In this document: piece by piece, positions 48,118 to 64,000 of the stretch
Position numbering within the stretch: the first letter of the stretch is position 1
How the letters are laid out: the number at the start of each line of letters is the position of its first letter
Origin: [Clostridium] saccharolyticum WM1
GTDB lineage: Bacteria > Bacillota > Clostridia > Lachnospirales > Lachnospiraceae
Direction of reading: 5' to 3'
Assembly (NCBI RefSeq): GCF_000144625.1
Contig: NC_014376.1
Span: 248,001-312,000 of the forward strand
DNA: 64,000 nucleotides
Position numbers and translations under genes: made by a program
Notes under the pieces: generated by a model
Seen by the model: the letters and a program-made list of their open reading frames with translations, nothing else
Databases searched by the model: none
Told to the model about the DNA's origin: nothing

Positions 48118-51834
<3,717 letters not shown>

Positions 51835-52295: not shown

Positions 52296-52320
52296 ACTTC
52301 GGGCCAAGTTGGCCCGAAGT
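52296..52320. repeat. ICE palindrome copy 1
   Basis: Perfect copy: 12-base arm ACTTCGGGCCAA, centre G, then the reverse complement of the arm. Its last base forms part of the TGA stop of the 64-residue gene at 52320-52514. Confidence 0.97.
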
Positions 52321-52514
52321 CAATAAGGGCTGTTCTGATAGTGGGTTTCCGCTTCCTCTATGCCGCAAGTATCGAAAACATAGTGAAGCTCTGAAACCAC
52401 ACGCTTTATATCGTCCGGGCTGAAATCACAGTTTTCCATAGCCCGAATGACATAGCCACGGCAAGCGCCGTTGCTCCATTGCTGATATAGCAATGACTGT
52501 AATTCCTTATCCAT
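52320..52514 (-). CDS. Small conserved-looking ICE protein
   Basis: 64 residues, MDKELQSLLYQQWSNGACRG, then AMENCDFSPDDIKRVVSELHYVFDTCGIEEAE. Helical, acidic, no named domain that I can confirm, but the composition and codon use are protein-like. It has no strong ribosome binding site. Its stop codon is shared with the first palindrome copy. Confidence 0.6.
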   Translation of the reverse strand: MDKELQSLLYQQWSNGACRGYVIRAMENCDFSPDDIKRVVSELHYVFDTCGIEEAETHYQNSPY

Positions 52515-52965
52515 AGTAAAACTCCATTCATCAATCGGGAGTATGCCGCGCCGTTATAAGTCGGCTTGTCGTAAGACAGAAAAAGCGGCGTGGCACTCCC
52601 TTTATATAAAAAACGATAATCCGGACGGGCGGCGGCAACCGCCCTCATGGGAATTTCACCCCGCCCCATGCTGATGGCGCGACGGTCAATGCTGTGAAGC
52701 GTTCAAACCGTAAGTATCATTGTATCAATCAAAAGATTTTCGCCGGGCAGATTGCCACATCTGCCTTGTCACAGTTAGTAGGAATCGCTCACGCTCCGTT
52801 TGGGTTTTCCCCCTTTCAACGGGCGGTCTTGGCGTACCCTGCGGCCTGGCTCCCTCTTGATTGAACGTATCCGGGTTATCGGTATTCAGTTGTCAAAGAA
52901 CAGCAGAGGGAGAAAAATTCCTTCTAATAGCCATGTGATTTAGAGGACAAATTCGGAACTGGAAA
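52515..52965. other. Gap of ~450 bases without a convincing gene; several hairpins
   Basis: No reading frame looks real. On the minus strand there is a possible promoter (TTGACA at 52896-52891 with a weak -10), then GC-rich segments with local stems: GGCAGAT...ATCTGCC (52746-52765) and GGGCGG...CCGCCC near 52635. The layout suggests an untranslated leader or structured RNA ahead of the small genes; this is inference. Confidence 0.45.
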
Positions 52966-53385
52966 TCAAGATTTTTTCAAAAATTCCTCCATGCTTTTCA
53001 ATCCTTTCTCAATAGCAACCCGGACTGCTTTTTCATTTACACCCTCTGCTCGTGCAATATCGGATTTACTCATGCCGAGTATGTAATGAGCGTAAATCCG
53101 TTTTCCTTGCTTGTCCGGCAGGGAAGCGATCGCGGAGTGTAACTGTTCGGCTGTGATTTTGCGTTCGTAAATCTCACAGGGAGAAAGGGATACGAAAAGA
53201 ATATCCTTTTCGATTCCGTCGCCAGCGTCCAGCGAATAGTGGGCTTTGTTATAGAAGCGGCGGCGAATGTAGTTTTTCTCCAAACGTTCCGCTTCCAGCA
53301 AAGCGTCCTTGATTACATCGGGTATTTCAACAAAGAAGTCGGAATTATAAAACGGGTAAAAATCCCGCAGATTGATTTTAGCCAT
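52966..53385 (-). CDS. ICE sigma-70-like factor (region 4 protein)
   Basis: 139 residues. The C-terminal ~55 residues (IASLPDKQGKRIYAHYILGMSKSDIARAEGVNEKAVRVAIEKGLKSM, read as a helix-turn-helix) resemble sigma region 4; the N-terminal FYPFYNSDFFVEIPDVIKDALLEAERLEKNYIRRRFYNKAHYSLD is typical of the sigma-like factors in Tn916-family elements (Orf7 type). Probably drives transfer genes. The ATG at 53385 has GGAGG; a start five codons upstream overlaps that site. Confidence 0.85.
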   Translation of the reverse strand: MAKINLRDFYPFYNSDFFVEIPDVIKDALLEAERLEKNYIRRRFYNKAHYSLDAGDGIEKDILFVSLSPCEIYERKITAEQLHSAIASLPDKQGKRIYAHYILGMSKSDIARAEGVNEKAVRVAIEKGLKSMEEFLKKS

Positions 53386-53461
53386 AGGGCGTTCCTCCAT
53401 TTCGATTTTTTAGGGAATAGTGAATCGAAACGGAGCGGGAGGGGAACGACAGCGGGGTCGG

Positions 53462-53486
53462 ACTTCGGGCCAAGTTGGCCCGAAGT
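53462..53486. repeat. ICE palindrome copy 2
   Basis: Perfect 25-base copy, 76 bases upstream of the sigma-like gene start. Confidence 0.97.
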
Positions 53487-53525
53487 GACAAAGCTTGTCC
53501 CATACGTTGTCAGTGAAAAAAGGGT

Positions 53526-53564
53526 ACAAAAAAACACCTTTACGCAAATTAGCGCGAAAGGTGT
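53526..53564 (-). terminator. Terminator hairpin on minus strand
   Basis: ACACCTTT pairs with AAAGGTGT, extended by GCG/CGC-type pairs; the minus-strand product is followed by seven T. Confidence 0.8.
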
Positions 53565-53570
53565 CGAACA

Positions 53571-53595
53571 AAAAATGGGCGCAATAGCCGCCCAT
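53571..53595 (-). terminator. Terminator hairpin on minus strand
   Basis: ATGGGCG pairs with CGCCCAT and is followed on the minus strand by TTTTTT. Confidence 0.8.
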
Positions 53596-53639
53596 TAGTT
53601 GATATAATATTTTAAAACTATGTAAATGAATTTTTTCTG

Positions 53640-53702
53640 CTATATTAAACCGTCACAATATGGCGGCGTTTCTCTCAGAGAAAAAAACGCTTTGGGGCAC
53701 AT
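53640..53702 (-). CDS. 20-residue leader peptide of a putative attenuator
   Basis: ATG at 53702 with GGAGG five bases upstream; the frame reads MCPKAFFSLRETPPYCDGLI and stops at TAG. The ribosome binding site and start codon lie in the loop of a terminator hairpin. Two minus-strand terminators follow, then the sigma-like gene. Position and structure suggest a regulatory leader rather than a functional peptide. Confidence 0.6.
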   Translation of the reverse strand: MCPKAFFSLRETPPYCDGLI

Positions 53703-53728
53703 AAAAACCTCCTTATCCCAAAGCCGCC
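53662..53728 (-). promoter_or_regulatory. Candidate ribosome-mediated attenuator
   Basis: On the minus strand GCTTTGGG (53724-53717) pairs with CCCCAAAGC (53697-53689) and is followed by seven T, a terminator that encloses the leader's ribosome binding site and ATG. An alternative pairing, GGCGGC (53728-53723) with GCCGCC (53667-53662), uses overlapping bases and would prevent it. Mutually exclusive stems around a short leader gene are the hallmark of attenuators in front of antibiotic-responsive genes. Confidence 0.6.
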
Positions 53729-53837
53729 AGATTAAGAAGAATTACAGATATACTCTTTCCGGTATTTAAAACGGAAAATGACGGCTTTGTATGTCTGTTA
53801 AATTTGTCAGCAATCGTATAGCAGAAAATTGTTGTAT

Positions 53838-53885
53838 GAAAAGAGCCGATAATCAAGAGATGTGTACTCATTGATTATCGGCTCT
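53838..53885 (-). terminator. Terminator of the KTR gene
   Basis: A 15-bp perfect stem (AGAGCCGATAATCAA with its complement) followed on the minus strand by TTTTC. It overlaps the KTR stop codon. Confidence 0.85.
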
Positions 53886-54063
53886 GCGTCTTTGCGTCTG
53901 GCTCTTTGATAACTGACATATTCAGTTGTCGCACATTGATTAGAGATTCTTGTTTGCATTTGGGACAGTATAGGGGGAAGTTTTCGAGTTTCGTATCTTC
54001 TCTAATTTTCAGTCTTGTTTTATTACCACATATAGGACATAGTAACCATTGAACTTCAATCAT
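53875..54063 (-). CDS. Cysteine-rich KTR domain protein
   Basis: 62 residues: WLLCPICGNKTRLKIREDTKLENFPLYCPKCKQESLI contains the CPxC-GNKTR ... CPKC zinc-ribbon pattern of the KTR family (read as two blocks). In Tn916-like elements this gene (Orf6 type) follows the tetracycline-resistance gene. Here it follows a methyltransferase gene, so a cargo slot appears to have been refilled. The ATG at 54063 has GGGGG upstream. Confidence 0.85.
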   Translation of the reverse strand: MIEVQWLLCPICGNKTRLKIREDTKLENFPLYCPKCKQESLINVRQLNMSVIKEPDAKTQSR

Positions 54064-54092
54064 TATCACCCCCTACATCATTTCATCAGTTA

Positions 54093-54818
54093 CTATTTTT
54101 CTGCTCTAATAATTACCGTTCCACAATTTTGATACAAAACCTCAACAGTTTTAAAACCGGCATTTTTCATAAGCTCAAATTGATGTTCCAATGTCAGTGG
54201 AATATCAATATGTATAAACATATCTTCGGGTATATTATTTTGCTTGCGCCTATATTCGTATCCCTCAAGACAAAGCGCTTCCTCTTCATCGCAACAGGCA
54301 ATATAGTCACATTCTATATAATATCCACCAGCTTTTATCGTCTGATAAAGTTTATTATAAATCAGTTGCTTTTTTTCATATTTAAAATGATGAAGTGTTT
54401 CAAAAGACATAGCAGCGTCAAACTTGTTTTCCTCAAACGGGTATTCAAAATAGTCCGCATTGATTATTTCAATGTTTTTATCACCATAGTTTTCTCGCAA
54501 CTTGTCAAGCATAGATTCAGACAAATCAATACCTGTAACCCTGACTTCGGGAAATCTCTTATACATTGATTCAAGCTCCAAACCTGTGCCACAACCAATA
54601 TCAAGTAATGTTTTCAAACCATCATCAAAGAAATCTGCAATATGAGCGTATTCCTCGCCCCAGTTTTTTAAATGAACATTATTATATTCACTAATCCTAT
54701 TAGCGAAAAAATTCGCCATTTCTTCCACAGGAACATTCTTTACCCCATCAAGCCAATCTTTTAATTCGCTTAAATATTTTTTGGTTTCCTCTTGAGTTCG
54801 GATTTTACTTTTTAGCAT
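54093..54818 (-). CDS. Class I SAM-dependent methyltransferase
   Basis: 241 residues. SAM-binding motif I LLDIGCGTGLELE, acidic motif II TGIDLSESM, IINADYFEYPF and SFETLHHF. The last third (YYIECDYIACCDEEEALCLEGYEYRR) should form the substrate side. Small-molecule methyltransferase fold; the target is unknown. AT-rich relative to the relaxase region. It lies downstream of the TetR gene on the same strand, probably in one operon under the palindromic operator at 55535. Confidence 0.87.
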   Translation of the reverse strand: MLKSKIRTQEETKKYLSELKDWLDGVKNVPVEEMANFFANRISEYNNVHLKNWGEEYAHIADFFDDGLKTLLDIGCGTGLELESMYKRFPEVRVTGIDLSESMLDKLRENYGDKNIEIINADYFEYPFEENKFDAAMSFETLHHFKYEKKQLIYNKLYQTIKAGGYYIECDYIACCDEEEALCLEGYEYRRKQNNIPEDMFIHIDIPLTLEHQFELMKNAGFKTVEVLYQNCGTVIIRAEK

Positions 54819-54895
54819 AACGATTTTGTCCTTTCATAAAAGCTGTTAATAATGAATTGATTATTTGATTTGCGTTGGGTTAGATAATAGGAGTA

Positions 54896-55468
54896 TCACT
54901 TATGTTCTTTGTCCTCTATTACTAAAGCAAATCGGTGAAAAGCATTTTTAATAAGCGTAATTACTTCCTCATATGGCAAGTCAATATCGTCTGATACAAT
55001 TTGAGTTGCAATACCATGTGAATAAAGCCACACATCCCTAAATAAATTTCGTGCGTTTTCCAGACTAAGGCCCGTTATTTCCTTTGCATTTAGAATTGAA
55101 AGTTGGTTCCAATCAGCATCAAGAATATCTTTAATACTTTTCCCCGCACAAGCTTTGTTCATAAAAAGGGTATTAAATATATTTTTTTCTTGTCTGGCAA
55201 ATTCAATGTAAGCAATTCCTTGCATTAGGAGGCGGTTATCATTACTCATTCGGGCTTCCATGAAAGTGTTATAATATATATTGAGTTGAGTAATGACATC
55301 TTGTTTTAGTGCTTCCATATTTTCATAAACGCGGAATAAAGGTTTGGTTGAGCAGTTCAATACGGAAGCAATACTTCTTGCGTTTATCCCCTCCATGCCC
55401 TGTTCGCGTACTATAGAAATAGCAGCCCTCAAAATTGCTTCCTTATTAGTTAATGGCTTTGGCGGCAT
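54896..55468 (-). CDS. TetR/AcrR family regulator
   Basis: 190 residues. N-terminal HTH (NKEAILRAAISIVREQGMEGINARSIASVLNCSTKPLFRVYENMEAL, read as the usual three helices), then an all-helical ligand domain. The ATG at 55468 follows GGAGG; a start ten codons upstream lacks one. A perfect 24-base palindrome lies just upstream, overlapping the expected transcription start, so autoregulation is likely, with the methyltransferase as co-regulated partner. Confidence 0.88.
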   Translation of the reverse strand: MPPKPLTNKEAILRAAISIVREQGMEGINARSIASVLNCSTKPLFRVYENMEALKQDVITQLNIYYNTFMEARMSNDNRLLMQGIAYIEFARQEKNIFNTLFMNKACAGKSIKDILDADWNQLSILNAKEITGLSLENARNLFRDVWLYSHGIATQIVSDDIDLPYEEVITLIKNAFHRFALVIEDKEHK

Positions 55469-55534
55469 ATAAAGTCCTCCTAAATGAATATTTATCATTG
55501 AAAAAATTGCTTTTTAATAATGAATATGAACGGA

Positions 55535-55558
55535 AACAGATGTTGCGCAACATCTGTT
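55535..55558. promoter_or_regulatory. Perfect 24-base operator palindrome
   Basis: The arm AACAGATGTTGC is followed directly by its complement GCAACATCTGTT. It lies 3 bases downstream of the minus-strand -10, as expected for a TetR repressor site. Confidence 0.85.
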
Positions 55559-55561
55559 ACT

Positions 55562-55589
55562 ATTATATCAGAACCACACAAAATGTCAA
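55562..55589 (-). promoter_or_regulatory. Promoter of tetR-methyltransferase operon
   Basis: On the minus strand TTGACA (55589-55584), 16-base spacer, TATAAT (55567-55562). Confidence 0.88.
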
Positions 55590-55805
55590 GGAGTTGGCCT
55601 AACAAGCTTAACAAAACTGATTAAGCAGTTCCTTGTGTAGCTCTCATTAACGGAGGTTATGCTAACCGGCAAGCAGTGCAAGTGTATTGACACTTGCACA
55701 TTTTTGAGATTTTCCCTGACGGGAAAACTAAAAAATTGCTTGTTGGGGTAGCCACCCCAAACCCGGTTAAAGTTGCGTCATTCGCTGTCGCTCATTCCTT
55801 GTTTA

Positions 55806-55830
55806 ACTTCGGGCCAATTTGGCCCGAAGT
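55806..55830. repeat. ICE palindrome copy 3
   Basis: Both 12-base arms are intact; the centre base is T instead of G on the plus strand. It is part of the 40-base direct repeat 55809-55848. Confidence 0.95.
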
Positions 55831-55848
55831 GGCTGCTTCGCACCTCAT
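55809..55848 (+). repeat. Left direct repeat flanking dehydrogenase/LysR cargo
   Basis: Forty bases (palindrome core plus TGCTTCGCACCTCAT) match 57704-57743 at 36 of 40 positions, in direct orientation. The cargo module lies between. Confidence 0.9.
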
Positions 55849-55926
55849 AGCAGTAGAGAAATTAACTATTGGCCGATAGCTTTTTGTATCTGCTATTTTT
55901 TATAGGTATAGAAGTTATACTGATAT

Positions 55927-56670
55927 TTACACTATGATCATGCCATTATTTGGACTAATAATTTGCCCAGTCATTGAATCCTGTGTGAGTATGGCACAGA
56001 TTAAATCCGCAATATCTTCGGGGGTGGATATACGTTGCAACGGGAGGTGTCCGCTTAATCTTTTCATTTTTTCTTCTTCTCCTGTCCACCAGCGGGTAGA
56101 TACCGCGGCAGGTGCCACGCAATTAACACGTATTTCTGGAGCAAGAGCATGTGCCAACGATTTCGTCAAGCCGTGAACAGCCGCCTTTGATACGGCATAT
56201 GGAAGAGAAGAACCAGAGCCGGTAATTCCGGCAATACTTCCCATATTCAAAATAGAGCCTACTTTGTTTTGTTTTATGATAGGAGCAACTGCGCGTGCGC
56301 AATAAAACATCCCTTTTAAATTTACATCAAGTAGATTGCTCCAAATATCATCGGTTACTGCTTCTAAGTTTGACAATTCAATCTGTTTCGTTATGCTCGC
56401 ATTGTTAATTAAAAAATGAATATTTCCAAAATGAGATAACGTCTTTTGCACCATTTCACGAACCTCATTATCTTGGGATACGTTTGCTTGAAGAAGCAAA
56501 ACTTCAGCACCAATAGTTTTAAGCTCATTTGCTGTATCAATCGCCTCTTGCTTTGAATGGTTATAATTCAAAACGATTTTGGCACCTTTTTCAGCAAGTT
56601 TCTTGCAGGCAGCTTTCCCTATACCTGTGCCACCTCCCGTTACTATAATCACTTTATTATAAATATCCAT
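55927..56670 (-). CDS. Short-chain dehydrogenase/reductase (FabG-like)
   Basis: 247 residues, classical SDR. Cofactor loop TGGGTGIG, NNAS, catalytic Ser in NMGSIAG, YAVSK with the Tyr-Lys pair. NADP is favoured by the fold but cannot be settled by eye. Substrate unknown. Divergent from a LysR regulator across 114 bases, the classic layout for a LysR-controlled gene. AT-rich compared with the ICE backbone and bracketed by direct repeats, so it is cargo. Confidence 0.9.
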   Translation of the reverse strand: MDIYNKVIIVTGGGTGIGKAACKKLAEKGAKIVLNYNHSKQEAIDTANELKTIGAEVLLLQANVSQDNEVREMVQKTLSHFGNIHFLINNASITKQIELSNLEAVTDDIWSNLLDVNLKGMFYCARAVAPIIKQNKVGSILNMGSIAGITGSGSSLPYAVSKAAVHGLTKSLAHALAPEIRVNCVAPAAVSTRWWTGEEEKMKRLSGHLPLQRISTPEDIADLICAILTQDSMTGQIISPNNGMIIV

Positions 56671-56784
56671 AAATTCATTCTTCCTTTCCGTATGTTTATA
56701 GGTTCATTATACCTTTTGAACAAAATAATGTATAATAGTTAGTAATGATACGACCTATCTGTATGAATGATGAGAGGAATCAAA

Positions 56785-57624
56785 ATGGAAAGCTTAGAGT
56801 TACGCATTTTTAGAGAAGTGGCTTATGAAAAATCTGTTTCAAGAGCCGCAGAAAAAATGGGATATGTTCAATCGAATGTAACAGCCCATATTCATAATCT
56901 TGAAGAAGAGTTAGGAACAGAATTGTTTATTCGTCATAGTAAAGGGGTTTCCCTTACTGATGATGGAAAACAATTATTATCCTATGCAGATCAAGTTATC
57001 AGCTTATTGGATAATGCTAAAAATAGCTTTATAAAAAGTTTGCCGACACTACGAATCGGGGCAACACAAACACTCTCCGCACACAGATTGCCTTTATGGT
57101 TGTCTGTTTTTAAAAAACAATATCCGCAAGTGAACTTATCTGTTTTCACAGATACACAAATCAATCTAATACAGTCCGTGGCAGACGGTGATTTAGATTG
57201 TGCCTTTGTAAATTCAGAATTTAATCACCCTAGGTTGGAATCTGTATTTTCATTTCAGGAGGAACTTGTGTTTATTACTCCACAAAATATGAAAGTTGGT
57301 GATATCCCATATCAGCCGATTGTTGTTACAAATATCTGCGGCTGTCCCTATCGCAATTTGCTTGAAACTTGGGTAATAAGAAACACTAACCGACAACCAG
57401 ATATCATTCAATACGATACGGTTGAAGGAATCATTAAAGCTGTATCGTTAGGAATGGGAATCTCTTTGTTGCCCCAAAACGTATTACCAGAGGCAAGCGG
57501 TATTCAAACATTTCCAGCAAAGGATATTGGCAGCCTAAATGTTCAGCTTTTAACGTCTAAAAATTTGAATAATCCCACTGTGAACTCCTTCATAGATATG
57601 ATTCAAAACCACTCTGATTATTAA
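56785..57624 (+). CDS. LysR family transcriptional regulator
   Basis: 279 residues. N-terminal HTH (LELRIFREVAYEKSVSRAAEKMGYVQSNVTAHIHNLEEELGTELF, seen as the usual helices), then a two-lobed effector domain (LRIGATQTLSAHRLPLWL, DGDLDCAFVNSEF, VSLGMGISLLPQNVL). The ATG at 56785 follows GAGAGG. It probably activates the divergent dehydrogenase gene. One of only two clear plus-strand genes inside the ICE. Confidence 0.9.
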   Translation: MESLELRIFREVAYEKSVSRAAEKMGYVQSNVTAHIHNLEEELGTELFIRHSKGVSLTDDGKQLLSYADQVISLLDNAKNSFIKSLPTLRIGATQTLSAHRLPLWLSVFKKQYPQVNLSVFTDTQINLIQSVADGDLDCAFVNSEFNHPRLESVFSFQEELVFITPQNMKVGDIPYQPIVVTNICGCPYRNLLETWVIRNTNRQPDIIQYDTVEGIIKAVSLGMGISLLPQNVLPEASGIQTFPAKDIGSLNVQLLTSKNLNNPTVNSFIDMIQNHSDY

Positions 57625-57703
57625 ATATACATTTGTAGTCTGTTGGCTGTCTATCTCATTGTTTTTATGTTGGGTGAGTTACTTTCTTATGGATACTGCG
57701 CAA

Positions 57704-57743
57704 TCGGGCCAAGTTGGCCCGAGGTGATTGCTTCGCACCTCAT
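57704..57743 (+). repeat. Right direct repeat with palindrome copy 4
   Basis: Second copy of the 40-base repeat. The palindrome inside it (57701-57725) is the most decayed of the nine: the core TCGGGCCAA-G-TTGGCCCGA is intact but the outer arm bases differ. Confidence 0.88.
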
Positions 57744-57757
57744 GTTACGTCATGTCG

Positions 57758-59158
57758 CTATCGCTCCATTTCCTTATTTTTCTGCGCGTCCGTCAGGCCG
57801 AGCAGATGGTCAATATTGCTTTTCATTGTTACAATTTCCTGCATGGCCTTTTTGGTTTCCCGGTACTCCCGATAAGCCTTTTTCTTGTCAGCCGACAACC
57901 GCTGAAATTCTGCTTTCAGCGTATCCATTTTGGGGAGCTTCGCCCCGGACAGCAAACGCCGGAACGTGTCCTGCGCCGCCCGGTAGGCGGCAATATCGGC
58001 TTCATGCTCCGCAAGATATTTCCGGCTATACTTCGCCGCCTTGTATCCCTCAAACACAGGCCTGGCTTTCGCATAATCTACCACCGCCGCCTTTAGCTCT
58101 GCATTGATATGTAGAGCGGCCTCGGTGGTTTTTATGCTGTCTGAAAGTGTATGGAAACGGTCGGTAAGCTCTGCGGTCTTTTGCTCTAAATCCGCATATT
58201 CCAGCAAACCATTTTCCTGCAAATACTGTAAGGCTGCCGCCATCTGCTTGAGGTTGAATACCTTTGCCCAGCGTTCATAGGCCGGGCCTTTTCCGGCTTT
58301 CATACGGGATTGAATATCCACAATCAGATTGACCTTGCGCCGTTCCTGCGGAGCGGCTTTTCCATCAATCGCCGCTTGTATATCCTCCTGCCCGTAGCCC
58401 TTGCCAAGCGTAGAAGCACGGAGCCGGGTAAAGCGTTCCTGCCCCTCTGCCCGAAAGCTGATTGTGCCGCCGCGCCCCTGCTTGATTTCATAGCCAGCCG
58501 CCGCCATTGCCTGTAAAAAGGTTTCCATATCCGGCGGCTTGGTTGCAAGGCAAATATCAATCTGCACCTTTAATTTCTCTTGAAAGGTAGGCGGCTTATG
58601 ACCGCCCAGCCATTCCCCGTAGTGCTTGAATTTTCCCTTGCTGTGGCGTTTCGGATTGGTGATAACAGACAATCCGTTTTCAAGGCATATCCGGTCGGAG
58701 AGCCGCCGCACCGCACGGGCTGAACCGATAAAATCCCGGAATTTCCGGGTGCAGTCCAGCGAGGTAGAATTGTAGTAAATATGGCAATGAGGGTGGGGAC
58801 GGTCAGCATGGGAAACCACGAAAAAGGCGTGTCGGCCTTTCGTCCAGCGCATGGCAAGGTCATAGCTGATTTTAAGAGCGGTTTCCGGGTCTGTTTCACC
58901 GGGCGGGAACGACTGCCGGATTTGGTAATATAGCACATCATTCTCCCGTTTTTGCTCCCGCCCTGTAATAGCTTTGTACTTTGCTTTGGATAGTAAAAAT
59001 TCTGCGTCAGCCGTGGCGGGGTCACATTCATAGGCAAGAATTAAATCGCCGTTGCGGGTCTTATCTGGATTTTTCCCGTAGTCAAAACCGTCCTTTAGGG
59101 TTTCCATAATGGTCATGCCGCTTCCAGTGTGACGGGTCATAAGGCGGGTGGTTGCCAT
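57758..59158 (-). CDS. Relaxase (MOBP-type mobilisation nuclease)
   Basis: 466 residues. N-terminal relaxase domain with the metal-binding His cluster HADRPHPHCHIYYN and the upstream KISYDLAMRWTKGRHAFFVVS; N-terminal MATTRLMTRHTGSGMTI is typical of the Tn1549-like relaxases. The C-terminal ~180 residues form long charged helices that may contact the relaxosome. It nicks the transfer origin and leads the strand into the recipient. The ATG at 59158 has AGGAGG upstream, and a palindrome copy ends 29 bases before it. GC-richer than the adjacent cargo. Confidence 0.93.
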   Translation of the reverse strand: MATTRLMTRHTGSGMTIMETLKDGFDYGKNPDKTRNGDLILAYECDPATADAEFLLSKAKYKAITGREQKRENDVLYYQIRQSFPPGETDPETALKISYDLAMRWTKGRHAFFVVSHADRPHPHCHIYYNSTSLDCTRKFRDFIGSARAVRRLSDRICLENGLSVITNPKRHSKGKFKHYGEWLGGHKPPTFQEKLKVQIDICLATKPPDMETFLQAMAAAGYEIKQGRGGTISFRAEGQERFTRLRASTLGKGYGQEDIQAAIDGKAAPQERRKVNLIVDIQSRMKAGKGPAYERWAKVFNLKQMAAALQYLQENGLLEYADLEQKTAELTDRFHTLSDSIKTTEAALHINAELKAAVVDYAKARPVFEGYKAAKYSRKYLAEHEADIAAYRAAQDTFRRLLSGAKLPKMDTLKAEFQRLSADKKKAYREYRETKKAMQEIVTMKSNIDHLLGLTDAQKNKEMER

Positions 59159-59187
59159 GTCCGGTTCCTCCTTTCCTCGAAAAAACA

Positions 59188-59212
59188 ACTTCGGGCCAAG
59201 TTGACCCGAAGT
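59188..59212. repeat. ICE palindrome copy 5
   Basis: One mismatch in the right arm (TTGACCC for TTGGCCC). Directly upstream of the relaxase ribosome binding site. Confidence 0.95.
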
Positions 59213-59238
59213 TGCCCGACAGTTCTGTTATTCTACTA

Positions 59239-59538
59239 TTAGCTTACAATAAAAAAACGGAGCGAATTGTTCAGGCTGTGCAATCCGTCAATGAGGTATT
59301 CCGCAATGCCGGGAATCCCAAGGGGAGAAATTAAAAATGACAGGAACAGGAACACGCCGAAGCCCAGCTTCTCGCCGCTTATCAGCAGGGCAATGCTGAT
59401 AAGAACGCCTATCCCGGAAACTACCTGTAAGAAAGCGGCGGCATAGCAGAACACAAATTCAATCATGGGTGTTACTATCGTCAGCAAAACCACAAACGGC
59501 GCGGCGATAATCTTAAATATCAGCTTGATAAACTTCAT
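59239..59538 (-). CDS. CD1845-like ICE membrane protein
   Basis: 99 residues, three hydrophobic helices (KLIFKIIAAPFVVLLTIV, VFCYAAAFLQVVSGIGVLIS, LGFGVFLFLSFLISPLGI) and the end AEYLIDGLHSLNNSLRFFI, the pattern of CD1845 family proteins found next to relaxases in clostridial elements. Function unknown. GAAAGGAGC precedes the ATG. Confidence 0.8.
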   Translation of the reverse strand: MKFIKLIFKIIAAPFVVLLTIVTPMIEFVFCYAAAFLQVVSGIGVLISIALLISGEKLGFGVFLFLSFLISPLGIPGIAEYLIDGLHSLNNSLRFFIVS

Positions 59539-59585
59539 AAAAATGCTCCTTTCATTGAGTTGCTTTCTTGTTGTATCCTACCTAT

Positions 59586-59626
59586 ATTTTACCATTTCGG
59601 GCAGGGTGCAACAATGTTGTCGAGGC
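59586..59626 (-). promoter_or_regulatory. Promoter of the CD1845-relaxase unit, twin of the recombinase promoter
   Basis: On the minus strand TTGTTG, 17-base spacer, TAAAAT. The stretch GACAACATTGTT and the spacer end GAAATGG match the recombinase promoter at 51865-51908. Confidence 0.72.
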
Positions 59627-59646
59627 CGCACCGATCTTGTCCCGGG

Positions 59647-59671
59647 ACTTCGGGACAAGTTGGCCCGAAGT
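59647..59671. repeat. ICE palindrome copy 6
   Basis: One mismatch in the left arm (GGGACAA for GGGCCAA). It lies between the XRE terminator and the promoter of the CD1845-like gene. Confidence 0.95.
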
Positions 59672-59683
59672 GGATTATGTAAA

Positions 59684-59716
59684 AGACGCGACAGCCTGTC
59701 AGGGACTGTCGCGTCT
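59684..59716 (-). terminator. Terminator of the XRE gene
   Basis: AGACGCGACAG and CTGTCGCGTCT form an 11-bp stem; on the minus strand TTT follows. Confidence 0.75.
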
Positions 59717-59730
59717 GCGTTCTTTTTCTC

Positions 59731-59958
59731 TTATTTTTTATTGTCCGGCGGTACAAATTCCAGCAGGTCGCCAATCTCACAATCCAGCACCGTACATATC
59801 CGGGCCAGAACATCAATATCCAGTCGGGTGATATTATTGTTGCAGTAATTGTTGATTTGGGTGCGCTGCATTTCCGCTTTGTGGCTCAATTTATTTTTGC
59901 TGATACCCTGCTGTTCAATCAGTTCGTCCAGCTTTATGCGAATGGTTCCATACTCCAT
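59731..59958 (-). CDS. XRE-type HTH regulator
   Basis: 75 residues, almost entirely one HTH domain: IRIKLDELIEQQGISKNKLSHKAEMQRTQINNYCNN, then ITRLDIDVLARICTVLDCEIGDLLEF. The ATG at 59958 follows GGAGGGG; a longer reading from 60000 lacks a site. Divergent from a small plus-strand HTH gene, with a short palindrome in the promoter between them, so it may act as a switch repressor. Confidence 0.9.
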   Translation of the reverse strand: MEYGTIRIKLDELIEQQGISKNKLSHKAEMQRTQINNYCNNNITRLDIDVLARICTVLDCEIGDLLEFVPPDNKK

Positions 59959-59993
59959 GAAAGCCCCTCCTTCCTGTGTAACACTCCACATCA

Positions 59994-60023
59994 TTGACAT
60001 ATATAGTATGTACTAAGTAGAAT
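59994..60023 (+). promoter_or_regulatory. Promoter of the small HTH gene with palindrome in spacer
   Basis: TTGACA, 18-base spacer, TAGAAT. The spacer contains the inverted repeat TAGTA-TG-TACTA (60004-60015), a plausible site for the divergent XRE protein. Confidence 0.65.
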
Positions 60024-60089
60024 TAAGATGTAAGCTCTAAGTAATCTAATTAGACATCTTGCACATACTACGAAAAAGGAGAGAACAAA

Positions 60090-60308
60090 ATGGATACTGC
60101 AAAAGCAAAAAAGGCACTGAAAAAACTTGCCAAGCAAAAGGGAATCAGCGAGAGGGCTGTACGCCAGGAAATTGAAATTGCGATACAGGAAGCAATGAAA
60201 AGTCCTGACCCACAGGCGCAGGCGTTCTGGAAGTCCATTCCCCACAAAGGAGAACAGCCAACGCCAGAAGAAGTCATTACCTACATAGCGGATATGGTAA
60301 AGGAATAA
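60090..60308 (+). CDS. Small Spo0A-C-like HTH protein
   Basis: 72 residues: LKKLAKQKGISERAVRQEIEIAIQEAMKSPDPQAQAFW resembles the C-terminal DNA-binding helices of Spo0A and the small proteins annotated that way in clostridial ICEs. No receiver domain. AGGAGA precedes the ATG. It is one of the few plus-strand genes in the element and faces the MobC gene across a shared terminator. May compete with or mimic sporulation control; that is inference. Confidence 0.8.
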   Translation: MDTAKAKKALKKLAKQKGISERAVRQEIEIAIQEAMKSPDPQAQAFWKSIPHKGEQPTPEEVITYIADMVKE

Positions 60309-60322
60309 TTGAGGATAGAGCA

Positions 60323-60363
60323 AAAGCGGGGAGCGGCGGCATTGTGCCAACGCTCCCCGCTTT
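60323..60363. terminator. Bidirectional terminator
   Basis: AAAGCGGGGAGCG pairs with CGCTCCCCGCTTT (13 bp) between the convergent small HTH and MobC genes. Confidence 0.8.
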
Positions 60364-60365
60364 CC

Positions 60366-60713
60366 TTATAGCTCCACTATCGCCGTAAGCTGTTTGAGTA
60401 CCTCTGAAACCCGGCCCCATAGCTCGGTATAATCTTTTTGCAGGGCGGCAATTTCGGACGGATAAACACCGTAGGTGTTGGCATGAATGGCAACCTGATT
60501 CAGATTGTTGGCACATCTGCGTTGCAGGGAAACCAGCTCCCGGACAGGGGCAAGGTCAACGTTCAGCACATATCCATTGAGGGCCATTTTGCGGATATAG
60601 GCGCTTAAATTCTGTGTTCCGGCCTGCGCCATACGCTCCTGAATGGCGGCGTATTCGTCATCACTGACCCAAACATAAAGGGGAACGCCCCGCCTGCGTT
60701 TGGGGCGGCTCAC
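60366..60713 (-). CDS. MobC-like relaxosome accessory protein
   Basis: 115 residues. Basic N-terminus then a ribbon-helix-helix-like region (VPLYVWVSDDEYAAIQERMAQAGTQNLSAYIRKMAL) and RRCANNLNQVAIHANTYG, the conserved MobC motif. Such proteins bind the transfer origin and assist the relaxase. The transfer origin should be close by, but I cannot identify it. Overlaps the upstream small gene by ATGA. Confidence 0.88.
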   Translation of the reverse strand: MSRPKRRRGVPLYVWVSDDEYAAIQERMAQAGTQNLSAYIRKMALNGYVLNVDLAPVRELVSLQRRCANNLNQVAIHANTYGVYPSEIAALQKDYTELWGRVSEVLKQLTAIVEL

Positions 60714-60892
60714 CGTTCTTCCCGTTCCCGGCTTCTGCGCTTTGCCGGCGGCTCCTTTACCCGGTCTTTCGGCCTTTCCTCCGGCATGGCCTGCACAACA
60801 GGCAGAGGGGCATTATTCGGAATCCCATCAATCATGTTATAATTCTGTTCCGTGGAAAGCTCCGCATTTTTCAAATAGTTATCCTTTTCCAT
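60710..60892 (-). CDS. Small DUF4316-like ICE protein
   Basis: 60 residues, MEKDNYLKNAELSTEQNYNM then IDGIPNNAP, matching the DNYLKNAEMxxEQNYNMIDG motif of DUF4316 proteins, with a basic tail (KRRSREREER). A TTG two codons earlier is an alternative start. It precedes mobC with ATGA overlap, so it belongs to the mobilisation operon. Confidence 0.75.
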   Translation of the reverse strand: MEKDNYLKNAELSTEQNYNMIDGIPNNAPLPVVQAMPEERPKDRVKEPPAKRRSREREER

Positions 60893-60915
60893 TCTCAAAA
60901 AACCTCCTTTTTGTG

Positions 60916-60940
60916 ACTTCGGGCCAAGTTGGCCCGAAGT
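60916..60940. repeat. ICE palindrome copy 7
   Basis: Perfect copy between the 195-residue ICE protein gene and the DUF4316-like gene, 23 bases before the latter's ATG. Confidence 0.97.
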
Positions 60941-60942
60941 GA

Positions 60943-61530
60943 TTACCTGTCTTTCTCTATGCTTCTTTCGGAAGCGGGACGGGTGGCGTTGTCCCGTGCG
61001 GCCTGTTTTGTCCCCTCTGCTAGCCGTGCGGCAATGGATTTGCTTTCTCCCGGTTCCCGCAAGGGGGCTTTTCTGTCGGGATTGCCGGGAGCCGCCCGAA
61101 GCTCATAATCGGCCATCTGCTTTTCTGTCAGAGGTGCGTCATATACAAGATAGCCCCATGCCAGAAAGCGGCCCTGTTCCACACTGTCCCGCTTATCAAA
61201 GTTCACAAAGTATAACGGGCCGTTCTCCGTTTTGGGGAATGTGCCAATATCCACCGGCCTTTGTGTAGAATAATACCGGTAAGCCGATTTTTCGGATATG
61301 CGGTAGTCATGCTGATATTCGGAAACACGGTTCTCATAATCCCTTGTGGCGGCGGCTTTATCGGTGGTATAGTGCCCCCAATAATAATCGCGCCTGCCGC
61401 TTGCGTCCTCGGTAAACTGCCATGTGGCAAAGGGCTGTACCGCCTGCGGATTTTCCCCAAGAGTAAAACCCCGGTCATTCTCAAAGGCAATGGCCCGTTT
61501 GATTTCATATCCTTTTACGTTATCGCTCAT
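60943..61530 (-). CDS. Conserved ICE protein of unknown function
   Basis: 195 residues: VKGYEIKRAIAFENDRGFTLGENP, QPFATWQFTEDASGRRDYYWGHY and YFVNFDKRDSVEQGRF. I recognise the type from clostridial ICEs (YodL/large-polyvalent-protein-like accessory regions beside DUF4316) but not its function. The C-terminal ~50 residues are charged and low complexity. GGAGGG precedes the ATG. Its stop lies next to palindrome copy 7. Confidence 0.7.
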   Translation of the reverse strand: MSDNVKGYEIKRAIAFENDRGFTLGENPQAVQPFATWQFTEDASGRRDYYWGHYTTDKAAATRDYENRVSEYQHDYRISEKSAYRYYSTQRPVDIGTFPKTENGPLYFVNFDKRDSVEQGRFLAWGYLVYDAPLTEKQMADYELRAAPGNPDRKAPLREPGESKSIAARLAEGTKQAARDNATRPASERSIEKDR

Positions 61531-61559
61531 TTTTCCCTCCGTTCTCATACATGGAAATG

Positions 61560-62045
61560 TCACGCTGTTACCCTCAAAAAGTGGGGGCAGGAAGCATAGA
61601 TCCCTTTTCCTTGAAACCGGAGCCGGAAAGCCCCGGAAATCAAGGCTTTTTCAAGCAAACTTCGTGACACCTTACCCCCTGTTTTGCGCCTGTGCCGCTG
61701 TTGGCGGCGGCGGTCTGCTTCGCGTTTTCCTTTCCGGCGGCAGGCTTCGGAGCAATAGACCTGACTGGTGACAGGAAGATAGACCGCACCGCAGACCGGG
61801 CAGGTCTTACGGGAAAGCACCGCAGGGGTTCCGGCTAAATCGGCTTCCAGTACCGGGTCAAGTGGAAGTACGGCCTTTTGAAAATACTTGCAGTCTGCGC
61901 CCGTCCACCATTTATTGAGCATATAGCACTCACAATCCAGCGGCAGACAGCCATATTCCGGGTCATAGTTGGCGCACATTCCCGTTACCAGTCTGCGGAT
62001 TGCGGCACGTTCCCGGCGGGTCAGTTCGCGGGAATCGGTACTCAT
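61560..62045 (-). CDS. Cysteine-rich VLP protein
   Basis: 161 residues. RLVTGMCANYDPEYGCLPLDCECYML and CPVCGAVYLPVTSQVYCSEACRRKGKREAD are the two zinc-binding cysteine clusters of the 'cysteine-rich VLP' family common in these elements. Basic C-terminus. Possibly binds DNA; function unproven. Start ATG at 62045 overlaps the upstream stop (ATGA) and has no ribosome binding site of its own, so translation is probably coupled. Palindrome copy 8 ends eight bases upstream. Confidence 0.82.
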   Translation of the reverse strand: MSTDSRELTRRERAAIRRLVTGMCANYDPEYGCLPLDCECYMLNKWWTGADCKYFQKAVLPLDPVLEADLAGTPAVLSRKTCPVCGAVYLPVTSQVYCSEACRRKGKREADRRRQQRHRRKTGGKVSRSLLEKALISGAFRLRFQGKGIYASCPHFLRVTA

Positions 62046-62254
62046 TTGTCCGACTTCGGGCCAAGTTGGCCCGAAGTTCCCTCCCTTTGCGGCAAAATCA
62101 AATCTCGGTAGCAAACGCCCACGCAGACAGAGCCGTTCCAATAACTACAATCCCGGCAGGGAGAGCCTTTCGGCGGCTTGTGCGCTGGAGCCGGGCGGCA
62201 GGGGCAGGGCTTTTCTTTCATCATTTTTTCATAGGGGCTGTTGGTGAAATTCAT
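62042..62254 (-). CDS. Small cysteine-rich ICE protein ending in palindrome-encoded tail
   Basis: 70 residues: PYEKMMKEKPCPCRP, then CRDCSYWNGSVCVGVCYRDLIL. The last codons (TSGQLGPKSDK) are encoded by palindrome copy 8. ATGA overlap at both ends (with DUF4366 upstream and VLP downstream). Function unknown; four to six cysteines suggest metal binding. Confidence 0.75.
   Translation of the reverse strand: MNFTNSPYEKMMKEKPCPCRPAPAHKPPKGSPCRDCSYWNGSVCVGVCYRDLILPQREGTSGQLGPKSDK
62053..62077. repeat. ICE palindrome copy 8
   Basis: Perfect copy read in frame as TSGQLGPKS at the end of the small cysteine-rich protein. Confidence 0.97.
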
Positions 62255-62928
62255 ACGTCCTCGTCCTCCCCAGTATCCGAAGCCTCCCCGTCTACTTCCC
62301 ACGGCGGGGTATCGTCCTCCTGCTCGTCGTAGGGGTCGGCTTCGTATTCGTCAAATTCGTCCTCGGTCAAAGCGGTCTGTTCCTGCTTCGGGCGGTAAAT
62401 CTTAAAGTAATATCCGGCCCCGCCGCCAATCACTACAACCGTCAGCACAAACAGGAGCATTGTAGTATTGCTTTTTTGCTCCGGCTCCGTAGAGGTTTCT
62501 AAAGAAGTTTCAGAGCTTATATCCGTTTCAGAATCGCTTTCCGGTTCGGGAGTGGATACAACGGCGGTTTCATTTTCCTCGGTATCCTCGGATTTCTCCG
62601 CAAGGGCCAGCAGGTCTTTTTCCGTCACGGCGTTCAGAAAATATACATTGTCCGTTTCCCGCTGAAGGTCAATGACAAGATAGAATACATTTTCGTCCGG
62701 GGTGGTGATGGTGTAAAACTGCTTGCCATCCTCGTCCGTGGCGGTATTGACTACGGTTCCCGTTCCGGCTGGGGTAAAGGGATTGGGGTCGCTGGTTGTT
62801 TCAGAAGTCGCCGGAGATTCCGTTACTTCCGGGGTTTCCTCACCGCCGCTGGCATAGGCCACAGTGCTAAAGGAAAATGCCATTAAAAAAGCGGCGCATA
62901 GCACCGCCATCATACGAAATTTCTTCAT
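62251..62928 (-). CDS. DUF4366 surface protein
   Basis: 225 residues. N-terminal signal peptide (MAVLCAAFLMAFSFSTVAYA), an extracellular domain with KQFYTITTPDENVFYLVIDLQR and VYFLNAVTEKDLLALAE, a Ser/Glu/Thr-rich linker, a transmembrane helix (MLLFVLTVVVIGGGAGYYF, about 158-178) and an acidic cytoplasmic tail. This is the DUF4366 layout found beside NlpC/P60 and DUF4315 genes in clostridial conjugative elements. Likely part of the cell-surface side of the transfer machinery. Confidence 0.88.
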   Translation of the reverse strand: MKKFRMMAVLCAAFLMAFSFSTVAYASGGEETPEVTESPATSETTSDPNPFTPAGTGTVVNTATDEDGKQFYTITTPDENVFYLVIDLQRETDNVYFLNAVTEKDLLALAEKSEDTEENETAVVSTPEPESDSETDISSETSLETSTEPEQKSNTTMLLFVLTVVVIGGGAGYYFKIYRPKQEQTALTEDEFDEYEADPYDEQEDDTPPWEVDGEASDTGEDEDV

Positions 62929-63194
62929 TCTTCGATTTCCTCCTTTTCAGTTTGGGCGGGTACTGCGGACTTCGGGCCAAGTTGGCCCGAAGTGGCGCCG
63001 CCTGCCTTTGCTGCTTTCAGCAGGTCGGCAAGGTCGGTCAGGGAAATATCCATGCCGCGCACCGCGTCCACGATTTCCAGATTTTCCAGCTCGGTTTTCT
63101 GCTTTTCCAGTTCTCGGAGCTTCGTTTGAAACTCATTGATTTTATCCTTAGTTTTCTGTATGTCCTTGCTAACACGTTCAATTTTTACGTTCAA
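62925..63194 (-). CDS. DUF4315 coiled-coil protein with palindrome-encoded insertion
   Basis: 89 residues. A coiled coil (IERVSKDIQKTKDKINEFQ, KLRELEKQKTELENLEIVDAV) precedes GMDISLTDLADLLKAAK, the DUF4315 pattern. Then TSGQLGPKS, encoded by palindrome copy 9, interrupts the C-terminal region before AVPAQTEKEEIEE. ATGA overlap with DUF4366. Function unknown. Confidence 0.85.
   Translation of the reverse strand: MNVKIERVSKDIQKTKDKINEFQTKLRELEKQKTELENLEIVDAVRGMDISLTDLADLLKAAKAGGATSGQLGPKSAVPAQTEKEEIEE
62969..62993. repeat. ICE palindrome copy 9
   Basis: Perfect copy inside the DUF4315 gene, in the same reading frame as copy 8. Confidence 0.97.
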
Positions 63195-63211
63195 AAGTTA
63201 CCTCCTTTTCG

Positions 63212-64000
63212 TTATGGCAAACGCCCATAGCCTAAAAAATGATTTTGCCAGTAGTTTGTATTGATCGAAGTGTACTGTATGGGAGAACCGCAATGGATCA
63301 TCATACCGTTTCCAACGTAAATTCCCACATGGCTTGCGCCGGAAGTGTCGTAGGTGCCTTGAAAGAAAATCAGGTCGCCGGGTTGTGCTTCACCCGGTGG
63401 GATATGGGAACAGGAATTAAAAAGCCCCGTTGCGGTGGTTCGCCCCACGCTTCCCACACCCGACTGATTGATGACCCAGCACACAAAGCCCGAACAATCA
63501 AAGGAAGTGGAGGGAGAAGAACCGCCCCAAACATAGGGGTAGCCTAAATATTTCTCCGCTTCCGTAATCATGGCGGCAAATTCCGGGTCGGCCAGAGCTT
63601 GTGGCGGTATGTCGTAATCGGTGTATTCCCCGGCATGGGCGTAAATATTGCCCTCGAACAGATAAGGGCGGTTGCCTTTGGTCTTTTGGTAAATGGCATA
63701 GCGTTCCGTCTGCTCCGGGTCGAGATTGGAAAGAGCCACGGCTCCCAATGACTTATTCTTCAAAGACACATTGAGGATATAGTAATCATAGGGAACCTCG
63801 TAGGTGTCGGTATGGGTTTCGCCGTTCTCGTCCGTCCAAGTGTCGGTTTCCGTGCGATAGCGTACCTCCACGGTTTCTGTGATGGTCAGGATATACTGTT
63901 GCCCGAACAGGGCTTGCAGTTCTGCCTGCGCCTGCGCCAGAGTGTAGCCGCCGTATTTTGCGGTCAGATAAGAAGCCAGCTCAAAGGGGTCATGCCCGAT
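63212..64000 (-). CDS. NlpC/P60 cell-wall hydrolase of the ICE (5' end outside window)
   Basis: 263 residues visible; the frame is open at the right edge, so the N-terminal part is missing. The C-terminal ~115 residues are an NlpC/P60 domain with catalytic Cys in TSFDCSGFVCWV, His in GASHVGIYVGNG and the third residue in MIHCGS. Upstream is a ~130-residue mixed domain (HDPFELASYLTAKYGGYTLAQ). In related elements this enzyme (often with an N-terminal lysozyme domain) opens the peptidoglycan for the conjugation channel. Confidence 0.9.
   Translation of the reverse strand: MGHDPFELASYLTAKYGGYTLAQAQAELQALFGQQYILTITETVEVRYRTETDTWTDENGETHTDTYEVPYDYYILNVSLKNKSLGAVALSNLDPEQTERYAIYQKTKGNRPYLFEGNIYAHAGEYTDYDIPPQALADPEFAAMITEAEKYLGYPYVWGGSSPSTSFDCSGFVCWVINQSGVGSVGRTTATGLFNSCSHIPPGEAQPGDLIFFQGTYDTSGASHVGIYVGNGMMIHCGSPIQYTSINTNYWQNHFLGYGRLP

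Follow-up and report, generated by a model that had tools for sequence, protein, structure and literature searches.

A palindrome array in a conjugative element

We examined a 64,000-nucleotide stretch of [Clostridium] saccharolyticum WM1 DNA (NC_014376.1, positions 248,001 to 312,000; hereafter the window), whose right-hand part lies in an integrative and conjugative element (ICE) that carries a dispersed array of 25-base palindromes. The ICE extends from a serine recombinase gene (window 50155-51834) to about C1:327.9k in genome coordinates, and its annotated core genes are on the minus strand. A first-pass annotation of the letters alone had reported nine copies of the palindrome and proposed that they are binding sites for an ICE protein, RNA processing hairpins or a small selfish repeat. 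Eight copies were recovered at the positions it gave by matching ACTTCGGGCCAANTTGGCCCGAAGT with at most three mismatches (0 matches in 100 dinucleotide shuffles), and the decayed ninth copy, at 57701, was picked up as a member of repeat family D2. The copies also fell into the classes it described: five are identical, those at 55806 (at the centre), 59188 and 59647 differ at one base, and the copy at 57701 has changed ends. No further match to ACTTCGGGCCAANTTGGCCCGAAGT at this threshold was present in the window, so its host part holds none, as reported. The copies, and the gene of the protein that may bind them, are listed below (window positions unless marked C1; nt, nucleotides; aa, amino acids).

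52296..52320, no strand, palindrome copy 1, perfect, 113 nt upstream of the DUF6870 gene
53462..53486, no strand, palindrome copy 2, perfect, 76 nt upstream of the sigma-70 region-4 gene
55806..55830, no strand, palindrome copy 3, plus-strand centre T, second copy flanking the SDR/LysR cargo, adjoining a stretch that we take to resemble an origin of transfer (oriT)
57701..57725, no strand, palindrome copy 4, ends decayed, 32 nt past the stop of the relaxase gene, a place kept in relatives
59188..59212, no strand, palindrome copy 5, one change, 29 nt upstream of the relaxase start
59647..59671, no strand, palindrome copy 6, one change, with GGGACA type in one half
60916..60940, no strand, palindrome copy 7, perfect, 2 nt past the stop of the DarA_C-domain gene
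62053..62077, no strand, palindrome copy 8, perfect, overlapping the 3′ end of a 70-aa frame within it, 7 nt upstream of the Cys_rich_VLP gene
62969..62993, no strand, palindrome copy 9, perfect, within the DUF4315 gene at its 3′ end, 40 nt upstream of the CD1107-like gene
C1:322409-323890, minus strand, long ParB gene (493 aa), first of the ICE operon, 10.4 kb past the right end of the window

A search of the WM1 genome (4,662,871 bases, one contig) with the 19-base core at up to two mismatches returned 18 copies, all at C1:300299-327794, and a control search with the reversed core returned none. All 18 lie inside the one ~30-kb ICE, with the array running on 16 kb past the right end of the window. 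Thus, the palindromes form a dispersed array on a mobile element, with none in the rest of the host, and are not spread at equal density inside and outside it.

The statement that each copy lies 7-113 bases upstream of the next gene held for seven of the nine, judged from strands and gene calls made by simple scripts rather than a gene finder. It failed for copy 3, where 307 nt separate the palindrome from the next frame on its strand, as well as for copy 4, whose adjoining gene is on the opposite strand. Placement at gene junctions likewise stood for most copies, but those at 62053 and 62969 lie within the 3′ end of a frame.

Across related loci, many of them close relatives, offsets from homologous genes were steady. 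A site was found within 60 nt of the stop codon, and mostly within ~13 nt, for ParB (19 of 24 loci), DUF6674 (14/14), the C-terminal part of VirD4 (19/19), TrbL (20/25) and DarA_C (13/13). Another site was 88-93 nt 5′ of the ParB gene in 16 of 16 loci. The relaxase gene had a site 27-30 nt 5′ of its start in 18 of 23 loci (farther off in 2 of 23) and one 31-35 nt past its stop in 21 of 24; the latter is usually followed by a GGGTTTGGGG...CCCCAACAAGC stretch, which we take to resemble part of an oriT. The DUF4315 and NlpC rows of this comparison gave no site within the limits set, though sites of the WM1 ICE lie inside these genes. Sites commonly lie directly against a stop codon or a motif of Shine-Dalgarno type: among 288 distinct sites, 67 have such a motif starting 2-7 nt downstream on the transcribed strand, compared to ~2.7 expected from its frequency. 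An intrinsic terminator follows the palindrome that precedes the gene for the 70-aa membrane protein, and an apparent one, detected by eye since its loop is too long for the scanner, follows the palindrome before ParB.

The exact 25-mer occurs in at least 120 genome-contig stretches, from many Clostridia, Sporomusa, Paenibacillus and a few metagenome-assembled genomes labelled Syntrophobacterales and Adiutrix. Of the 120 stretches listed, 103 encode relatives of at least one of 22 proteins of the WM1 ICE and 17 do not. In an even sample of the window's class, it was present in 9 of 245 genomes. Megablast of window 57700-63230 against plasmid and phage collections found no similar DNA; viral contigs gave three stretches with one match each.

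We compiled 343 sites from the WM1 ICE and loci L009-L128, after dropping 67 whose flanks had already been seen; 201 are perfect and 99 have one change. Of these, 288 have distinct flanks and could be assigned a strand. The central base is C or G in 266 of the 288, and variation falls mostly in one arm pair, 9/17: unchanged in 212, (T,G) in 28, (C,T) in 17, (C,A) in 17, (A,G) in 5, (G,G) in 4, (T,A) in 2, (T,T) in 2 and (A,A) in 1. The arms are therefore conserved between related ICEs, although the sample favours this outcome because loci other than the WM1 ICE were picked for at least one exact match.

Lone palindromes were also recovered. Six (L043, L044, L046, L059, L069 and L092), in genomes where no long ParB was found, lie near genes for response regulator, MerR, AraC, ABC-2, esterase and pyridoxamine oxidase proteins, and a similar one (L118) lies near an FtsX-like permease gene. 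These may be relics, or may mark cargo that moved out of an ICE together with its site.

The long ParB and its predicted recognition helix

The long ParB encoded by the ICE matches the ParB N-terminal domain (PF02195, E 2e-18) and TIGR00180 (78.9 bits; cut-off 58.45), and its top Foldseek matches are ParB, Noc, Spo0J and KorB. Among the protein matches listed, the closest ParB is that of Faecalispora jeddahensis (99%). In the structure of the 99% identical P0001, helices at residues 341-348 and 353-362 are predicted to form a helix-turn-helix. Where GERR would be expected, the protein has GHRR, and G270, H271, R272 and R273 were invariant in 54 sequences chosen from 120 matches listed, out of 7,995 ParB relatives. 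The N-terminal ~200 residues are mostly disordered, with one conserved helix (residues 85-102). We also noted a IPAPGDVVVSFDKINEIVSG motif (ParB residues 75-95) conserved in this otherwise variable region, with V82, V83, F85, K87 and I88 invariant in the same 54 sequences; it may be a partner-docking helix.

Comparison of ParB alignments with the sites around each gene revealed that the DNA-reading helix and the palindrome change together. Sites were typed in 4.5-20 kb of fetched DNA per locus at up to three mismatches, with ties counted apart. Nine elements have the helix VKQVQR: the WM1 ICE (9 sites), G650 (4), G638 (12), G649a (4), G655 (4), G666 (3), G072 (4), G656 (11) and G651 (6). Of these 57 sites, 53 were nearer TCGGGCCA..TGGCCCGA (GGGCCA type), none was nearer TCGGGACA..TGTCCCGA (GGGACA type), and 4 were ties, namely three WM1 sites with one half of each type and one G666 site with T in both halves. 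The helix YKKVMR occurs in four elements, G649b (3 sites), G506 (2), G786 (2) and G560 (4), and all 11 sites were nearer the GGGACA type. G649 holds both ParBs, each adjoining its own site type. G690, whose ParB is a fragment without the helix, was left out of the count (it has one GGGACA-type match).

The helix of G506 prompted a search there for GGGACA sites, and two were present on an 11-kb contig piece (L206:6054 and 9508), both coming from an unbiased palindrome listing. The first lies a few nucleotides past the parB stop, where the WM1 ICE, G072 and G560 also have a site. A whole-genome search for TCGRGACA..TGTCYCGA with one mismatch found 12 places in G560, single or few places in G072, G176 and G651, and three in the WM1 genome, which are the ICE sites with one changed half.

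A third pair was found in G176, whose ParB is 33-35% identical and has the helix STTVLYR. This genome has 11 copies of AACATTCCCAANNTTGGGAATGTT, nine of them in 30 kb beside parB (C2:55616-85962), and six other genomes had none. Of the 22 queries from the WM1 ICE, those with relatives in 20 kb fetched from this element were VirD4 (split into two queries), relaxase and ParB alone. G176 also carries GGGACA palindromes on other contigs, one of which (C38) has its own transfer genes; no cognate ParB was found for these palindromes.

The residues that change with the site lie within the predicted recognition helix (353-362 in the model of P0001). Residue 353 aligned to the arginine of GKxR in Thermus Spo0J, though the local alignment is weak and the stretch one of low confidence. 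We take this arginine to be equivalent to R173 of Caulobacter ParB. According to one report, R173 is among four residues that set the preference of ParB and Noc for parS or for the Noc-binding site (NBS) (PMC7383237). The core of the WM1 ParB is 62% identical both to that of G656, which has the same helix and the same site, and to that of G506, in which both helix and site are of the other kind, so the agreement between helix and site is not accounted for by overall divergence alone. Together, these comparisons support the view that the ICE-encoded ParB and the palindrome belong together, and that the site changes with the DNA-reading helix.

The long ParB also tracked the number of sites. We scored 50 genomes that hold the 25-mer, taken from 62 loci picked (one genome per organism as far as titles show), calling a ParB long at E 1e-80 or better; the best short ParB there was at 2e-76. 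A long ParB was encoded in 17 of 17 genomes with at least 12 sites, 4 of 8 with 7-11 sites (G650, G656, G666 and G672) and 2 of 25 with 1-6 sites (G649 and G655). G664 has only decayed pieces of one. In the class sample of 245 genomes, 62 have ParB relatives at 1e-20, and the match reached the N-terminal half only in G000, G072 and G176, plus a 96% identical contig-edge fragment in G235 (apparently the same genome as G666, to judge by matching contig numbers and positions). These four all belong to the nine palindrome genomes of that sample, G176 being counted through a GGGACA-type palindrome on another contig and not through the array beside its ParB.

Related Firmicutes ICEs have homologous VirD4, VirB4, TrbL and PrgI but a short ParB of ~300 aa, whose core is ~46-50% identical to that of WM1 in the two measured. 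Unlike the long ParB, these proteins are without the N-terminal extension and have other recognition helices, and no comparable palindrome array was found with them. We presume that these elements are of the Tn1549/CD1115 type. Four such loci (L164, L166, L167 and L169; L166 is in the WM1 genome itself) and other short-ParB loci had no comparable palindrome family in a de novo search with arms of 9. A looser search found none in L164 and L166, AT-rich families in L167 and two small ones in L178, which we regard as chance. A single match of GGGCCA type, at the limit of three mismatches, lies in L169.

Proposed function of the array and alternatives

Judged by these sequence comparisons, the palindromes are most likely ParB binding sites, and we consider it probable that they bind the ICE's own orphan long ParB as a clamp-loading array for KorB-like control of the element. 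Of the three possibilities in the first-pass annotation, sites for an ICE protein thus gains support and a candidate in the long ParB, while the RNA hairpin and the selfish repeat are disfavoured. In the model that we propose, a ParB dimer would read each palindrome with its two recognition helices; as its family membership suggests, the protein would probably then bind cytidine triphosphate (CTP), close as a clamp and slide away from the site. About 18 loading sites, spaced at roughly 1.6 kb, could in this way cover the whole element. The likeliest use, by analogy with KorB, would be to keep the conjugation operon quiet while the ICE is integrated, and sites ~90 nt upstream of the parB start and just 3′ of its stop may let parB regulate itself. 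We hold these last two steps less firmly than CTP-gated loading and sliding. A broader version, in which an element-wide coat of sliding clamps formed by the orphan long-armed ParB silences the operon and may tie termination, oriT and transfer to a single switch with its own evolving helix-to-site code, is one we put forward tentatively and would sooner doubt than adopt.

Several results weigh against control by a ParB clamp or narrow the support for it. Since each helix and site class is a single ParB clade in the tree, the concordance amounts to two independent shifts, not thirteen points. Because three of the nine WM1 sites in the fetched locus (L006), and four of the 18 across the ICE, are of GGGACA type in one half, one half-site evidently tolerates that base. 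In G506, neither a repeat search with a three-copy threshold nor a scan with the 10-base half-site CTTCGGGACA at four mismatches found any site. The AlphaFold2 model is of modest confidence (mean pLDDT 57.9), and CTP hydrolysis is unsure because the core motif is GHRR, not GERR. A long ParB was not found in four genomes with 7-11 sites (G630, G636, G637 and G661, where broken contigs are a likely cause), in 22 of the 25 genomes with 1-6 copies, or in five of the nine palindrome genomes of the class sample (G034, G042, G110, G155 and G194, with 1-4 copies each). Three sites of G042 are on an ICE fragment, alongside TrbL and membrane-protein relatives, and the 20 kb fetched held no ParB. Repression of promoters draws no support from the distribution of promoter-like matches, which were at chance level over 16 kb of the ICE (27 compared to 24.3 expected); a promoter scan of one 400-base stretch gave none. 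Finally, since sites adjoin Shine-Dalgarno motifs and terminators, there is room for an added role at the RNA level.

The same ParB-site array could instead serve stability, as a dispersed centromere for the excised circle or a replicating ICE, or as a nucleoprotein structure that shields or organises the element around transfer. Partition is what ParB is best known for, a site adjoins the oriT-like stretch 3′ of the relaxase gene in most relatives listed, and dispersed sites would fit hitch-hiking or compaction. However, one parS cluster would be enough for partition, and here sites are kept at most junctions. In addition, none of the 15 matches to the ParA family AAA_31 in the genome falls between C1:298155 and 328000 (other ParA-like Pfam families were not searched). 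The lack of an AAA_31-type ParA in the ICE disfavours ordinary partition, though not stability roles in general, and we regard a stability function as unlikely. That ParB is only co-inherited and a different ICE protein occupies the sites, such as DUF6870, the sigma-70 region-4 protein or a small Cro-like protein, seems very improbable. All ICE proteins diverge together, the segregation into two classes is one event, and the small Cro-like protein was outside the 22 queries run against the G176 element. Nonetheless, site and helix agree with only one of two elements from which the WM1 ParB is equally far, and in the 20 kb searched of the third class only VirD4, relaxase and ParB of the 22 queries are detectably shared.

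If the palindrome acts as transcribed RNA, forming hairpins between cistrons for processing, stability, translation or antitermination, the Shine-Dalgarno-like motifs and terminators described above would have a ready explanation, as might a mild lean to one strand among single changes at pair 9/17 (28 v 17 and 17 v 5). Two-sided binomial probabilities for this lean are about 0.14 and 0.02, for sites that are not independent. Base pairing does not appear to be what is kept: of 71 single changes at this pair, 43 (17+17+5+4) break pairing on the transcribed strand and 28 keep G-U, only two of the five double changes still pair, and these compensated (T,A) changes make up just 2 of the 288 sites, so that the arms give little sign of covariation. 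Moreover, the arms change along with the DNA-reading helix, and no Rfam family was detected at the window's palindromes. We therefore consider RNA hairpins as the main function improbable. Least credible of all is the idea that ICEs have been colonised by a REP- or RPE-like selfish repeat of small size. Single or few copies near cargo-type genes in some genomes could be read this way, but the sites hold fixed offsets at homologous gene ends (as in the 19 of 24 loci with a site at the ParB stop), none lies outside the ICE in the WM1 genome, and their sequence changes in concert with ParB.

If binding by the long ParB is confirmed, a family of Firmicutes conjugative elements gains a candidate master DNA-binding protein together with its exact operator, and the two can be tested together. 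The helix-palindrome pairs (GGGCCA, GGGACA and AACATTCCCAA) would form a natural test set for specificity change in ParB-type proteins. An array with no ParA found also raises the question of what a ParB clamp does apart from segregation.

Related systems and other features of the element

The protein fold and the idea are already known. By analogy, KorB of RK2 is the nearest working counterpart: KorB-OB also pairs a ParB-fold protein of a conjugative element, with a disordered N-terminal region, with many dispersed operators, and KorB structures were among the fold matches of the long ParB, although sequence similarity is weak (E 3e-4). KorB is described as having GARR in place of the usual GERR (PMC11790492) and so, like the long ParB with GHRR, is without the glutamate; RK2 has 12 KorB sites according to a title in the reference list of that paper. 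Unlike the 16-bp OB given in the same paper, the palindrome here is 25 bp. The element is a Firmicutes ICE, with sites mostly at gene ends and no evident placement by promoters, and no KorA or IncC partner was identified (a KorA candidate was not sought). The palindrome is presumably unrelated to parS and NBS. Chromosomal ParB-parS and Noc-NBS share with the long ParB the ParB_N domain, a recognition helix that reads a palindrome and, going by PMC7383237, a specificity residue at the same helix position. They differ in that here no ParA partner was found, the site is longer and the protein has the ~200-residue N-terminal extension. BisD of Pseudomonas ICEs is a ParB-like protein named as a regulator of gene expression in PMC12704722; it is proteobacterial. 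Literature searches (open-licence papers; titles and abstract starts) returned no description of the long orphan ParB family, its palindrome, the junction array or the helix-site pairs, and a search with the palindrome sequence itself gave mouse papers only.

Other genes of the ICE in the window were assigned by domain annotation:

50155..51834, minus strand, serine recombinase (Recombinase and Resolvase domains), left ICE end
52966..53385, minus strand, sigma-70 region-4 protein
57758..59158, minus strand, relaxase (MobA/VirD2-like)
60366..60713, minus strand, NikA/MobC-like mobilisation protein
62925..63194, minus strand, DUF4315 gene, which holds palindrome copy 9

DarA_C, Cys_rich_VLP and CD1107-like proteins are also encoded here, and further proteins of the ICE include DUF3801, DUF6674, DUF7768, TrbL, SpoVG-like, PrgI and VirD4. 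Collagen-like repeat coding sequence flanks the ICE on both sides (window 48549-50158 and C1:327925-329076), so it appears to be inserted into a collagen-like gene. In Scatolibacter (L076), a collagen-repeat frame likewise adjoins the parB end. The VirD4 gene of the WM1 ICE (C1:318495-320327, equal to L006:6495-8327) is broken by an in-frame stop where 23 of 24 matched places, all but WM1, have a sense codon; because of this stop, the WM1 copy may be transfer-defective.

Two blocks of cargo each lie between two palindromes: SDR and LysR genes (window 55806-57725), and genes for a DNA methyltransferase and a GHKL-ATPase protein (C1:323984-327797). The palindromes around the first block have extra flanking sequence in common, as if the cargo entered beside them. 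Upstream of the sigma-70 region-4 gene (52966-53385) is a stretch resembling a hairpin, CCATTTCGATT...AATCGAAATGGAGG, that would mask the gene's Shine-Dalgarno sequence; inspection by eye showed it in several relatives. The ICE also contains a match to the Rfam pemK RNA motif on the minus strand (window 52645-52723), which scored 56.2 bits compared to a gathering threshold of 34.8.

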